Origin: an uncultured Nitrospira sp.
GTDB taxonomy: Bacteria; Nitrospirota; Nitrospiria; Nitrospirales; Nitrospiraceae
DNA length: 57,368 nt
Assembly (NCBI GenBank): GCA_902500825.1
Contig: CABVRX010000024.1
Location: forward strand, 1 to 57,368
Direction: 5' to 3'
This document shows, piece after piece, positions 52,083-57,161 of the stretch. Made by a program: the position numbers and the translations under genes. The notes below the pieces were generated by a model, which saw only the letters and a program-made list of their open reading frames with translations, searched no databases and was not told the DNA's origin. Each line of letters starts with the position of its first letter. Within the stretch, counting starts at the first letter, position 1.

Positions 52083-54017
52083 TCAGGAGTTCGCTTCTCG
52101 TACCAACTCTTGGAGGTTTGCGCGAAGCGCCGACAACGTCAGCGGCTTGGTCAGGACTTTATCCATCCCGGCCTCGCGACACTTCTGAACATCTTCATCG
52201 GACGTATGACCGGTGAGGGCCATGATAGGCAAATGGCTAAACGTCCCTTTCTCGCGAAGACGAACTTCTCGGGTGGCTTCATAGCCATCCATCTCGGGCA
52301 TCTCACAATCCATCAACACGACGTCATACGCTGTTCGAGTGATAGCTTCCACCGCTTCACGCCCTGTGCGAGCAATTTCGACCTGACAGCCGAGCTTCTG
52401 TAAAAACTTGCAGGCGACAACTTGATTAATTTCATTGTCGTCCGCGATCAACACTCGTAGCGGTCCCACCTGCTCTCTTGCACCGCGTTGGGCTGAGCCT
52501 AGGGAAGATGCTGCGGGATCTCGAGGAATGGCCGGAAGGAGATTGGTGGTATAGGTGAACATACTACCGTGACCGAACTCGCTGCTGACCGCAATGGTCC
52601 CTCCCATCAACTCGACAAGTTGGCGGCAGATCATCAGACCAAGACCGGTTCCCCCGAATCGTCTCGCGGTTGACGCATCAGCTTGTGTATACGCCTTAAA
52701 CAGTTGAGTTTGTTGTTCCAGAGTTAACCCGATGCCCGTATCTTGAACGCTCCATTGCAGGACCACTGGCTCCGAACTATCCGACGGTGTTGTCTTGACA
52801 GACACCGTAATCGTAACTCCTCCATGTTTCGTGAACTTGATCGCATTCCCTACGAGATTGAATAGGATTTGCCGCAACCTGATCGGGTCACCTCGGAACT
52901 CCTCCTGAACCTCGGCGTCAATCTTCACCGAAACCGTGAGACCTTTTGAGGAAGCTAACCCCTCTGCCAACGTCGTCACATCACCAATCAATGCCCGCAG
53001 ATTGACATCGGCCACCTCCAAGGTCATTTTCCCGGCTTCGATTTTTGAAAAATCGAGAATGTCGTTCACCAACGCCAACAACGCCTCCGCGGAACGATGC
53101 ATCGTCTCGATCAGCTCCCGCTGCTGACCGGTCAACGATGTGTCCTTGAGAAGCTGCGTACACCCCAGCACCCCGTTCATCGGAGTTCGAAGCTCATGGC
53201 TCATCGTGGCGAGAAAGATCCCCTTCGCTCGCGTCGACTCCTCAGCTGCTTCTTTCGCGCGGCGTAACGCCACATCCGATGTGATATCAAGCCCGTATAC
53301 ACGGACTAGTTCCAACTCACGCAATGGAAAAAACGACCACGCGATAACCCGATCCGCCACGACATGCTCGACCCGCGACAAAGCGGAATCGGTCGTGAGG
53401 CACTCGCGTAGCATCGCCGATAGATTTGCGGGGAACATCACTTCGATACCGGCTTCAAGGAGTCCACATTGTCCTATCACATTCAGCATACCGGTGTTGG
53501 CATAGAGCATGGCACCCGTCGTGTCAAATTCCACAATAGGATTTGGCGCATCCTCGGCCAGCCGTGCGGCTCGATGAACATCCTGCTGAATCTCCTTTGC
53601 ATCACTCAGATCACGGACGACCACCAGACCACCGACCGGCATGCCTTGTTGTGTCCTCCGCACGAACGAAAGCGACAGCTCGAACTGAGTCCCATCCTCT
53701 CGATTCCAAAAGTGAGAAGGGATTACGACAGACTCGCCGGTATTTGCCATCCGAGTGAATGGACACTGAGCCGTTTCACTCTCGCCTGACGTAAAACAGC
53801 CAATAAGGTCATGAAAGCTCTGACCGATGACCTCACGTGTTCTGCCGACAAGTTGTCGTGCGACAGGATTGAGAAATAGTGTGCACCCTTCTTGGTCTGT
53901 AATAAAAATCGCTTCTGCCGAAGTCTCCAAAATGAGTGAGATATCCTCTCGGGACGGCCGCCAAGCCGGCGAACCATTAGAGGGATGATCAGGAATAGGT
54001 ATGGCAGGAATCGTCAT
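52083..54017 (-). CDS. Hybrid PAS-sensor histidine kinase
   Basis: 644 residues, soluble. PAS at 25-130 (LETSAEAIFITDQEGCTLFL), a second PAS at 145-260, HisKA with H in FLATMSHELRTPMNGVLG near 270, ATPase with NAIKFTKHGGV, DTGIGL and GTGLGL, and a C-terminal receiver (RVLIADDNEINQVV, DVVLMDCEMPEMDG, TKPL). Output target unknown. It is opposite to the riboswitch and flagellar-like gene, whose leader region faces its start. Confidence 0.93.
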   Translation of the reverse strand: MTIPAIPIPDHPSNGSPAWRPSREDISLILETSAEAIFITDQEGCTLFLNPVARQLVGRTREVIGQSFHDLIGCFTSGESETAQCPFTRMANTGESVVIPSHFWNREDGTQFELSLSFVRRTQQGMPVGGLVVVRDLSDAKEIQQDVHRAARLAEDAPNPIVEFDTTGAMLYANTGMLNVIGQCGLLEAGIEVMFPANLSAMLRECLTTDSALSRVEHVVADRVIAWSFFPLRELELVRVYGLDITSDVALRRAKEAAEESTRAKGIFLATMSHELRTPMNGVLGCTQLLKDTSLTGQQRELIETMHRSAEALLALVNDILDFSKIEAGKMTLEVADVNLRALIGDVTTLAEGLASSKGLTVSVKIDAEVQEEFRGDPIRLRQILFNLVGNAIKFTKHGGVTITVSVKTTPSDSSEPVVLQWSVQDTGIGLTLEQQTQLFKAYTQADASTARRFGGTGLGLMICRQLVELMGGTIAVSSEFGHGSMFTYTTNLLPAIPRDPAASSLGSAQRGAREQVGPLRVLIADDNEINQVVACKFLQKLGCQVEIARTGREAVEAITRTAYDVVLMDCEMPEMDGYEATREVRLREKGTFSHLPIMALTGHTSDEDVQKCREAGMDKVLTKPLTLSALRANLQELVREANS

Positions 54018-54296
54018 ACGTTGACCAACATCGCTATCACTTCACCGGCACAAAAAACTCGGCCTATCAGTCATACCTTATCGGTACCTACGTGTATTTT
54101 CTGAATTGAGAAGTCTCGCAAAATCATGCACAAGCGCCCAAGAGTGGTACACCATTGATGATCGGCTGCGAGCAATCCAAACTGCATAGTCTGTGCTCAA
54201 TTCTCTCGGTTCGTGGCGGTTACCATTGACCGACTCCTGCTACACTTCAACCAATCGCCACTCAAGTCTTAGATCAAACGACCGATACAGTTTTCG

Positions 54297-54395
54297 ACAG
54301 GGTGAAAAAGGCAAACCACCCGAGAGGGTGGGACGCAAAGCCGAGGGACCTTAACAGGGACGGACCATGTTCCAGGGTCAGCCTAGCTGCCACAC
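54297..54395 (+). promoter_or_regulatory. c-di-GMP-I (GEMM) riboswitch
   Basis: Conserved blocks GGCAAACC, a GAGA tetraloop hairpin (CCACCCGAGAGGGTGG), GGGACGCAAAGCC, and CTTAACAGGG lie in order as in GEMM-I aptamers, ending with a CAGCCTAGCTGCC segment like the second GEMM hairpin foot. It is immediately upstream of a short leader ORF and the flagellar-rod-like gene at 54480, so both are expected to respond to c-di-GMP. The rest of the 54018-54396 gap shows no gene. Confidence 0.9.
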
Positions 54396-54396
54396 T

Positions 54397-54483
54397 ATGA
54401 ACGAACTGACCAGTCAGGCTCCTCCCATTCCCCCGGTGCCTTCCACTGAATTTCAGCGCCACATGCATGGAGGTGCCGCATGA
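54397..54483 (+). CDS. 28-residue leader peptide coupled to the rod-like gene
   Basis: MNELTSQAPPIPPVPSTE, then FQRHMHGGAA. The ORF starts right after the riboswitch and its stop overlaps the next start codon (ATGA at 54480). Its own ribosome site is weak, while GGAGG inside it serves the next gene, so translation of the leader may control coupling. Alternatively the ATG is chance. Confidence 0.4.
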   Translation: MNELTSQAPPIPPVPSTEFQRHMHGGAA

Positions 54484-54833
54484 TTTCCGCTATCCACACA
54501 GCACTCTCGGGCCTGACCGCGATCGGCAAACAGATCGAGGTTGTTGCGCACAATATCGCCAACGTCAATACCGATGGGTTCAAGAAATCCAGAACAGAGT
54601 TCGTCGAAATTCCGAGCGGTGGGGTCCTCCCCGTTGTTGAAAAAGATGACTCGTCCGGCCCAACCGTCCTTCGCGACACTGGCGGCAATCAGACCATGGT
54701 CGAACTCTCGAACGTCGATCTCGGCGAGGAAGCGGTGCGGCAGATCGTGGCTCAGCGTAGCTTTGAAGCAAATCTTCAGACCTTACGAACGGGAGATGCC
54801 TTGCTCGGCAGTATTCTGGATATAAGAAAGTGA
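54480..54833 (+). CDS. Flagellar rod/hook-family protein (FlgC-like, short)
   Basis: 117 residues. N-terminus AIHTALSGLTAIGKQIEVVA followed by HNIANVNTDGFKKSRTEF matches the conserved rod/hook entry; the C-terminus NVDLGEEAVRQIVAQRSFEA matches the FlgB/FlgC/FlgG family end. The middle is shorter than in typical FlgC and lacks the DPxHP stretch. GGAGG lies 5 bases before the ATG. It is the only flagellar gene in the window and sits under a c-di-GMP riboswitch. Confidence 0.8.
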   Translation: MISAIHTALSGLTAIGKQIEVVAHNIANVNTDGFKKSRTEFVEIPSGGVLPVVEKDDSSGPTVLRDTGGNQTMVELSNVDLGEEAVRQIVAQRSFEANLQTLRTGDALLGSILDIRK

Positions 54834-54986
54834 AGACTGCGGCTGAGATCGAAGTCGAGTAGGAAAGTAACCCTTCACGGTTTTTCGTTCAACCATTGTC
54901 TCGACCTTCGCCTCAATCTTAACCTCACTTTCAGCCTCGGACCTTCCGAATAGCTTTCTTTCCTGCCTTTGTGTTATGTCGAGGCC

Positions 54987-57161
54987 ATGGCTTGTCCTCG
55001 CGTCTTATTGGTAATTCCTCCCTTGACCCAGCTGAACACTCCCTACCCATCCACCGCTTATTTAACGGGATTTCTTCAGTCCCGCGGAGTCGAAGCAGAG
55101 CAAGCCGACTTGGGTATTGAGATGGTGTTGCGCCTATTCAGTCCTGATGGACTACGAAATGTTTTCCGACGACTTCGCGACGAGAAGAACTTACTTCCCA
55201 AAGAAGCTCTCGGCATGCTGAGAAACGAACACACCTACGTGGAAATGATCGGACCGGTCGTTGCCTTCTTGCAAGGCAAAACCCCTGAGATCGCCAATCG
55301 TTTGACTCGACCCGGAGTGCTGCCTCAAGGTCCTCGATTCCGAGGTCGTCGGAAATTCGCGCGCTCTGTATCAGAGCTTGATCGAGCCAAACAATGGGCG
55401 ACGTTCTTCCTTGAAGACCTCGCCGATTTGGTGCAAGCCACGATTACACCGCACTTCGCCTTGAGCCGATATGCCGAGCATATCGGGCGCAGCGCCTCAT
55501 CGTTTGATCAAATCGCCACCGCCTTGGCGGAGCCGCCGAGTCTGACTGATGAATGGGTCCTGGATTCATTTTGGAAACACCTCCATCGCGTCAACCCGAC
55601 GCTGATCGGTTTCTCCATACCGTTTCCGGGTAATCTCTACGGTACATTCCTCATCGCAAAGACGCTCAAGCAGCACCGTCCTGACCTGCCTATTGCCATC
55701 GGCGGCGGCTATGTGAACACGGAGTTGCGTCGCGTTGCCGACCCTCGAGTGTTCGATTATGTCGACTTTATTACGTTCGACAACGGTGAACGACCGCTCC
55801 TCTCCTTGATTGAACATATTTCTGGCTTGCGTCCGCGCCGATCGCTATGCCGCACGATGTATCGCCAACACAATCGCGTGGTCTATGCCGATGATCCCTC
55901 GTCACGTGATTTCACGATGAACGACATCGGCTGTCCCACCTACCGCGGCCTGGAACTGGATCACTACCTGACCATTCTCGACAGTGCCAATCCGATGCAT
56001 CGCCTCTGGTCTGAAGGTCATTGGAATAAACTCACCGTGGCACACGGCTGCTACTGGAAACAATGCACGTTCTGCGATATAGGACTCACCTACATCAGTC
56101 GGTATGAGATGACACCGACGGAGCGGCTCATCCGACAGATTGAACAACTCGTAGACGAGACGGGCCGAAGAGGGTTTCACTTCGTTGATGAAGCCGCACC
56201 ACCGTCCGCATTGAAGTCGCTGGCCCTTGCGCTCTTGGAGCGACAGATCGATATCACCTGGTGGGGGAATATCCGCTTTGAAACCGCTTTTTCACCGGAC
56301 CTGTGCCGCCTTCTTTCCGCCTCCGGTTGTATCGCGGTGACGGCCGGGCTGGAGGCGGCATCGGATCGGTTACTTGACGACATGAAGAAAGGCATCACCG
56401 TCGATCAGACCGCGCTGGTCGCAGCCGGGTTCAAAGATGCCGGCATCCTGATCCATGCCTATCTGATGTATGGTTGTCCGTCTGAGACCATTCAGGAAAC
56501 CATCGATTCCCTCGAGCGAGTCCGCCAGCTTGTCGCGGCAGATCTCCTTCAATCAGCCTTTTGGCATCGTTTTACCGTCACCGCTCATAGCCCGGTAGGG
56601 CTGGATCCCACCGCCCATGGTTTGCGCATCATAGGACCGGAGTTTCAAGGGTTCGCGGATAATGATCTTCTTCATCGCGATGACCGAGTGGAAACGCCAC
56701 CCTGGCTCGGTGAAGGACTGCGACGATCGCTCCTGAATTACCTTGAACGGCAGGGACTTGATCTCGATGTCCGTCAGTGGTTCGATGATGAAGTCCCGCT
56801 CCCTCAGGTACCTCTCACATGGCTCAGACGCTTGCTCAAGAAGCGGACGATCTGTGACCGTTCAGACTTAGAACGACGTGTAGTCTGGTTGGGTGGAGCA
56901 GTGACCTGCCAGCAGCACGGAAAGAGAGCAACACTTACCATGGCCGGCTCACGGAAGGATCATGTCATCACAGTTTCAGAACCTGAGGTCCGATGGTTGG
57001 TGCAATTGATTAGAGATGCCACCCCAATGCAGGCATGTCAGACCTATCCGCATATGCGGGAGGCCTGCCACCAGTTTCCCGGCAGGGAGTCGGCGTTCAA
57101 CGCTTTTCTGGGCACCTCTTCGTGGAAAAAGACCCGCGAGGCAGGTCTCGTGCTCGTGTAA
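54987..57161 (+). CDS. B12-binding-like radical SAM protein
   Basis: 725 residues from ATG 54987. The start VLLVIPPLTQLNTPYPSTAY is the entry of B12-binding radical SAM proteins; no DxHxxG for base-off B12 binding is seen. The cluster motif is HGCYWKQCTFCDI, that is CX4CX2C instead of CX3CX2C. Later blocks (FHFVDEAAPPSAL, GLEAASDRLLDDMKKG, YLMYGCPSETIQETID) match the family. Substrate is unknown. A strong hairpin (57244-57280) ends the transcript. Confidence 0.82.
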   Translation: MACPRVLLVIPPLTQLNTPYPSTAYLTGFLQSRGVEAEQADLGIEMVLRLFSPDGLRNVFRRLRDEKNLLPKEALGMLRNEHTYVEMIGPVVAFLQGKTPEIANRLTRPGVLPQGPRFRGRRKFARSVSELDRAKQWATFFLEDLADLVQATITPHFALSRYAEHIGRSASSFDQIATALAEPPSLTDEWVLDSFWKHLHRVNPTLIGFSIPFPGNLYGTFLIAKTLKQHRPDLPIAIGGGYVNTELRRVADPRVFDYVDFITFDNGERPLLSLIEHISGLRPRRSLCRTMYRQHNRVVYADDPSSRDFTMNDIGCPTYRGLELDHYLTILDSANPMHRLWSEGHWNKLTVAHGCYWKQCTFCDIGLTYISRYEMTPTERLIRQIEQLVDETGRRGFHFVDEAAPPSALKSLALALLERQIDITWWGNIRFETAFSPDLCRLLSASGCIAVTAGLEAASDRLLDDMKKGITVDQTALVAAGFKDAGILIHAYLMYGCPSETIQETIDSLERVRQLVAADLLQSAFWHRFTVTAHSPVGLDPTAHGLRIIGPEFQGFADNDLLHRDDRVETPPWLGEGLRRSLLNYLERQGLDLDVRQWFDDEVPLPQVPLTWLRRLLKKRTICDRSDLERRVVWLGGAVTCQQHGKRATLTMAGSRKDHVITVSEPEVRWLVQLIRDATPMQACQTYPHMREACHQFPGRESAFNAFLGTSSWKKTREAGLVLV

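Follow-up and report, generated by a model that had tools for sequence, protein, structure and literature searches.

It has been reported that c-di-GMP represses the flgB flagellar operon of C. difficile through a c-di-GMP-I riboswitch (PMC6200980). In Bdellovibrio, FliA promoters of the form TTAAG-N16-CCGATA are widely used in the motile phase, during which merRNA, a c-di-GMP-riboswitch RNA, is also expressed (PMC3627812). The contacts of c-di-GMP in the c-di-GMP-I riboswitch are G20, A47 and C92 (PMC4744006). A full-text literature search for Nitrospira with c-di-GMP and riboswitch apparently returned nothing on this subject.

The locus described here, from a nitrite-oxidising Nitrospira bacterium, resembles these systems in part. 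As in Cdi-1-3 of C. difficile (PMC6200980), a c-di-GMP-I riboswitch precedes a flagellar rod-type gene and the predicted direction is OFF; Cdi-1-3 acts by transcription termination on a 23-kb operon, whereas the Nitrospira locus has no terminator, a single stray gene and probably translational control. Its putative FliA promoter is of the same type as those of the Bdellovibrio FliA regulon (PMC3627812). For merRNA, however, no FliA site is listed and no gene lies downstream, while promoter, aptamer and gene form one unit at the Nitrospira locus. The aptamer and the rod protein are individually of known kinds, and the double control at this locus is unusual; what is new is that a sigma28 promoter and a c-di-GMP riboswitch are stacked or exchanged on one orthologous gene.

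Features of the locus

The window, meaning the whole stretch of DNA that was analysed (57,368 nucleotides), is an entire contig (C24) of a 3.79-Mb genome that is 99.8% complete. The features discussed below are collected in Table 1.

Table 1. Features of the riboswitch locus, in window coordinates.
Feature	Position	Strand	Basis or remark
TGCTACACT, housekeeping-type -10-like site, weak	54238–54246	+	Upstream of most aptamer loci
Predicted sigma28/FliA-type promoter, TCAAGT-N14-CCGATA	54262–54287	+	Genome pattern count; box conservation
c-di-GMP-I class aptamer	54301–54395	+	RF03167 and RF01051 covariance matches; G20, A47 and C92 equivalents G54310, A54337 and C54390
5′ strand of P3	54341–54348	+	May pair with 54429–54436 in a putative competing ligand-free fold
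28-codon leader ORF	54397–54483	+	Same ORF in 2 of 25 loci; judged not to be a functional part
Putative anti-P3 segment of linker	54429–54436	+	
Anti-Shine-Dalgarno segment CGGUGCCUUCC	54434–54444	+	Pairing kept; fixed position
Shine-Dalgarno region GGAGGTGCCG	54469–54478	+	Invariant in the window's clade
Miniature flagellar rod-type (axial) protein, 117 aa	54480–54833	+	Pfam PF00460 and PF06429; AlphaFold; orthologues

The c-di-GMP-I aptamer

The original prediction placed a c-di-GMP-I (GEMM-I) riboswitch before a lone flagellar-rod-like gene, and the covariance search bears this out. The c-di-GMP-I-GGC variant family RF03167 gives 67.9 bits (E 5.6e-14; cut-off 59) and the parent family RF01051 of the same clan (CL00126) gives 60.8 bits (cut-off 35); in the Rfam search this aptamer is the sole match of c-di-GMP-I type in the genome. 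When the RF03167 covariance alignment is mapped onto Vc2 numbering, a mapping that is our own, the ligand-contact triad is kept. An aptamer stands before the orthologous gene in 25 of 64 loci; for this count the upstream sequence of every orthologue was read, and the aptamer pattern misses GGCGCAAAGC aptamers (L194 and L214 in the named set). Riboswitch, likely ligand and lone rod-like target are upheld by these matches, contacts and recurrences.

At the A47-equivalent position, the window and its homologues carry A where the RF03167 consensus has G, so that the variant consensus is not matched; 'GGC' in the family name presumably refers to these contact positions. Because of this A, the pocket looks canonical for c-di-GMP-I, although the overall sequence scores better with the variant model, and c-di-GMP is the likely ligand. 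Sensing of 3′,3′-cGAMP or another dinucleotide might be suspected from the fact that the top-scoring model is the variant family and not the parent, but cGAMP-sensing relatives carry A at the G20 position, where the window has G, and the A47 equivalent departs from the variant consensus; since the pocket residues point to c-di-GMP, cGAMP specificity was set aside as very unlikely.

Elsewhere in the family, in other genera, RF03167 aptamers (L007, L008, L028, L029, L030) precede unrelated genes, one of which has a fibronectin-III-like stretch, and no rod-like gene was found among them; genome-wide RF03167 counts are lower bounds, with 29 candidates scored per genome.

The sigma28/FliA-type promoter

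Just 5′ of the aptamer lies a predicted sigma28/FliA-type promoter that the original prediction had overlooked and that the window's clade has conserved. The pattern occurs at six sites in the genome, compared with none for the reversed-pattern control, and one of these sites precedes a flagellin gene (flagellin identified by eye). Among 13 aptamer-bearing loci of the clade, 11 of 12 box columns are invariant, against 3 of 14 spacer columns and 27 of 77 columns overall (p 1.8e-5). The genome has a FliA gene, and the conserved promoter stands at a fitting distance before aptamer and gene, as in a member of a FliA regulon; transcription of the locus would depend on FliA.

The -10-like site TGCTACACT lies 16 nt upstream of the sigma28 boxes and is rated weak because a sigma70 consensus scan gave no promoters; in other aptamer clades, a housekeeping-type -10-like element of this kind is the only promoter-like element. 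It could be argued that the sigma28-like boxes are a decayed relic and that the aptamer RNA is made only from this housekeeping promoter, given that sixteen aptamer loci have only the -10-like element and that the boxes score 11/15 in the window and 11–12/15 in its clade, against 12–14 in aptamer-less relatives. However, both boxes are invariant while the spacer drifts, which is not expected of a relic, and this reading is regarded as unlikely; a working FliA-type promoter is preferred.

Elsewhere in the genome, TCAAGT/TTAAGT-N14-CCGATA stands before genes whose translations, judged by eye, are a PilZ-like, a CBS-domain-like and a large GAF-type signalling protein (L182, L181, L183; contigs C16, C4, C19). 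Divergent from the locus, at 52083–54017 on the minus strand, is a gene of a hybrid PAS histidine kinase/response regulator, and a conserved TAGGTACCGATAAGG (a sigma28-like -10) is found upstream of it in several relatives; this kinase gene may share the motility regulon.

The miniature rod-type protein

The 117-aa protein has the N- and C-terminal axial domains of flagellar rod and hook proteins, Flg_bb_rod (PF00460) and Flg_bbr_C (PF06429). It had been described as FlgC-like, a description that suits its predicted fold, whereas in sequence its ends come closest to the FlgG/FlgE type. Its nearest own-genome protein is FlgG-like (L034; 53% in the N-terminal and 37% in the C-terminal part); with the FlgE/F/G-type axial subfamily TIGR03506 it scores 75.8 bits in two terminal pieces (cut-off 70.25), with the FlgC equivalog TIGR01395 39.7 bits (cut-off 102.1), and it falls below every curated FlgB/C/E/F/G equivalog cut-off listed. 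The AlphaFold model, a helix, four strands and a helix with pLDDT 85, has as its top Foldseek matches 127–130-residue Salmonella proximal rod chains (E 9.6e-8, TMq 0.84). The protein is a miniature rod protein whose ends are FlgG-like and whose predicted fold is FlgC-like. It shares with FlgC and FlgG the same two terminal domains and the predicted match to the Salmonella proximal rod; unlike them, it is 117 aa long, is encoded outside the flagellar cluster and in many relatives has control of the late-gene (sigma28) type, which argues against a role as an early structural rod part.

The gene is indeed alone, as first noted: the contig has no other Flg_bb_rod gene, and the genome's six other rod/hook-type genes lie on contig C1 with FliG and FliA, so that this flagellated organism has the 117-aa gene as an additional, stray copy. 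Downstream (54969–57161, plus strand) is a gene of a Radical SAM/B12-binding protein; several g1 relatives have the two genes in this order too, but the other genus does not.

An orthologue is present in 64 of the 147 genomes of the family. Three genomes (G009, G139, G067) have no FliG, no FliA above cut-off and no other PF00460 gene. Two of them, both near-complete, hold an intact gene: G009, in which the riboswitch is also kept, and G139, whose copy differs from that of G121 by 48 synonymous and 10 nonsynonymous codons; in G067 the copy has decayed. The evidence on flagellum dependence is mixed, since retention in G009 and G139 hints at flagellum-free use and decay in G067 at dependence.

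Expression platform and direction of control

A GGAGG-type Shine-Dalgarno (SD) sequence is found in nearly all orthologues. In the window's clade, 90 of 90 cells allow the anti-SD segment to pair with it, and the variation in five columns always keeps the pair; slid controls reach 40–56%. The consensus fold of these sequences also served to select the helix and, because the SD letters are invariant, the pairing is without two-sided covariation. The best anti-SD lies 46 nt before the ATG in all nine loci of this clade, and in eight of the nine the pairing is better than in shuffled linkers. In a second aptamer clade, seven of eight loci have another anti-SD, again at a constant position, and none was found in a third. 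For the P3 5′ strand and the anti-P3 segment, 86% of cells pair, with one compensatory change, which does not go beyond shuffles (54/500); a duplex test of the two was likewise no better than shuffles. No plus-strand terminator-like site was found between aptamer and gene in the terminator scan, and terminator-based control was rejected for this reason.

The following mechanism is proposed. The FliA/sigma28-type promoter would make an mRNA that starts almost at the aptamer, and because this promoter feeds the leader, message would be present only when the flagellar regulon is on. When c-di-GMP is bound, the aptamer would be closed and CGGUGCCUUCC would be free to pair with the SD GGAGGUGCCG, stopping translation; without ligand, the P3 5′ strand would hold part of the linker, leaving the SD exposed. 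The outcome would be a translational OFF switch that confines synthesis of the mini-rod protein to motile cells with low c-di-GMP. The model as a whole, a motility gene under double control by a FliA/sigma28-type promoter and a c-di-GMP-I riboswitch, with translation of the FliA-made mRNA blocked at high c-di-GMP, is held with moderate confidence from the sequence comparison, and the OFF direction would fit the sigma28 promoter and, by analogy, the C. difficile flgB case.

The direction is not certain from sequence, and the bound-state folds show further SD pairings too. An ON switch can therefore be considered, in which the SD becomes accessible once c-di-GMP binds and the rod-like protein has a sessile or surface role; the intact gene in two flagellum-less genomes, of which one also has the aptamer, would suit such a role. 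However, OFF is favoured by the position of the anti-SD, within the linker and overlapping the stretch that the competing fold would take up, and the shared sigma28 promoter assigns the gene to the motile state, so that an ON switch appears improbable.

The coupling envisaged in the original prediction was different: an obligate leader ORF, with an ATGA overlap, might link the switch state to initiation at the rod-like gene. The 28-residue ORF does exist, from its ATG to a TGA that overlaps the ATG of the gene, and the same frame can also be read without a stop from an earlier ATG, at 54367, which lies within the aptamer. The same ORF is found in only two of the 25 aptamer loci, the window and G099; in relatives, its start, length and frame alter or disappear. 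In the nine closest aptamer loci, the leader ATG is replaced in most and the linker is 85, 86 or 89 nt long, so that the frame is not kept (not constant modulo 3). The overlap is trivial because the gene begins with ATGAT and any ORF in that frame stops there, and no SD is apparent before the leader ATG. Since the ORF is not conserved even among the nearest relatives, coupling by its translation is unsupported and most improbable, open though it is in two loci; the comparison of the 25 loci led to its rejection as a functional part, and it would have no conserved part in the mechanism proposed above. The conserved SD/anti-SD footprint would give a simpler coupling.

Promoter and aptamer among relatives

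The 64 orthologous loci differ in what precedes the gene. In 31 of them there is no aptamer, and the gene is immediately preceded by a sigma28-type promoter at a distance of about 69 or 108 nt from its ATG; nine, those of the window's clade, have both aptamer and sigma28-type promoter; 16 have an aptamer and no sigma28 match, most of them with a TGCTA(C/T)ACT -10-like site; and the other eight have neither aptamer nor sigma28-type promoter. In two loci of a clade without the sigma28 site (L018, L021), an inverted repeat, GTTGATC-AATCCC-GATCAA(C), stands between the -10-like site and the aptamer and is a possible operator. The sigma28-type promoter is also matched in four distant relatives, namely Mariprofundus, a Deltaproteobacterium and two further Nitrospirota records, and sigma28 control may therefore be ancestral. 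On both the RpoB tree and the gene tree, there are at least five changes in the presence of the aptamer; many branches are weakly supported, and the locus may have been transferred.

A wider interpretation is offered tentatively, as possible and not as probable. In Nitrospira, the FliA promoter and the c-di-GMP riboswitch may be interchangeable motility sensors on a stray mini-rod gene, exchanged for one another or stacked as an AND gate several times among sister species, and the protein may be a late flagellar or surface factor able to outlive the flagellum, because two near-complete genomes without FliG, FliA or other rod genes keep an intact copy.

Meaning for Nitrospira

The locus provides a natural experiment: close relatives carry one orthologous gene, some with a c-di-GMP riboswitch and some lacking it, and its flagellar-sigma promoter is alone, stacked with the riboswitch or replaced. 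The comparison shows gain and loss of second-messenger control over a motility gene, and it places an unstudied rod-like protein in the motile state of an environmentally important nitrifier.
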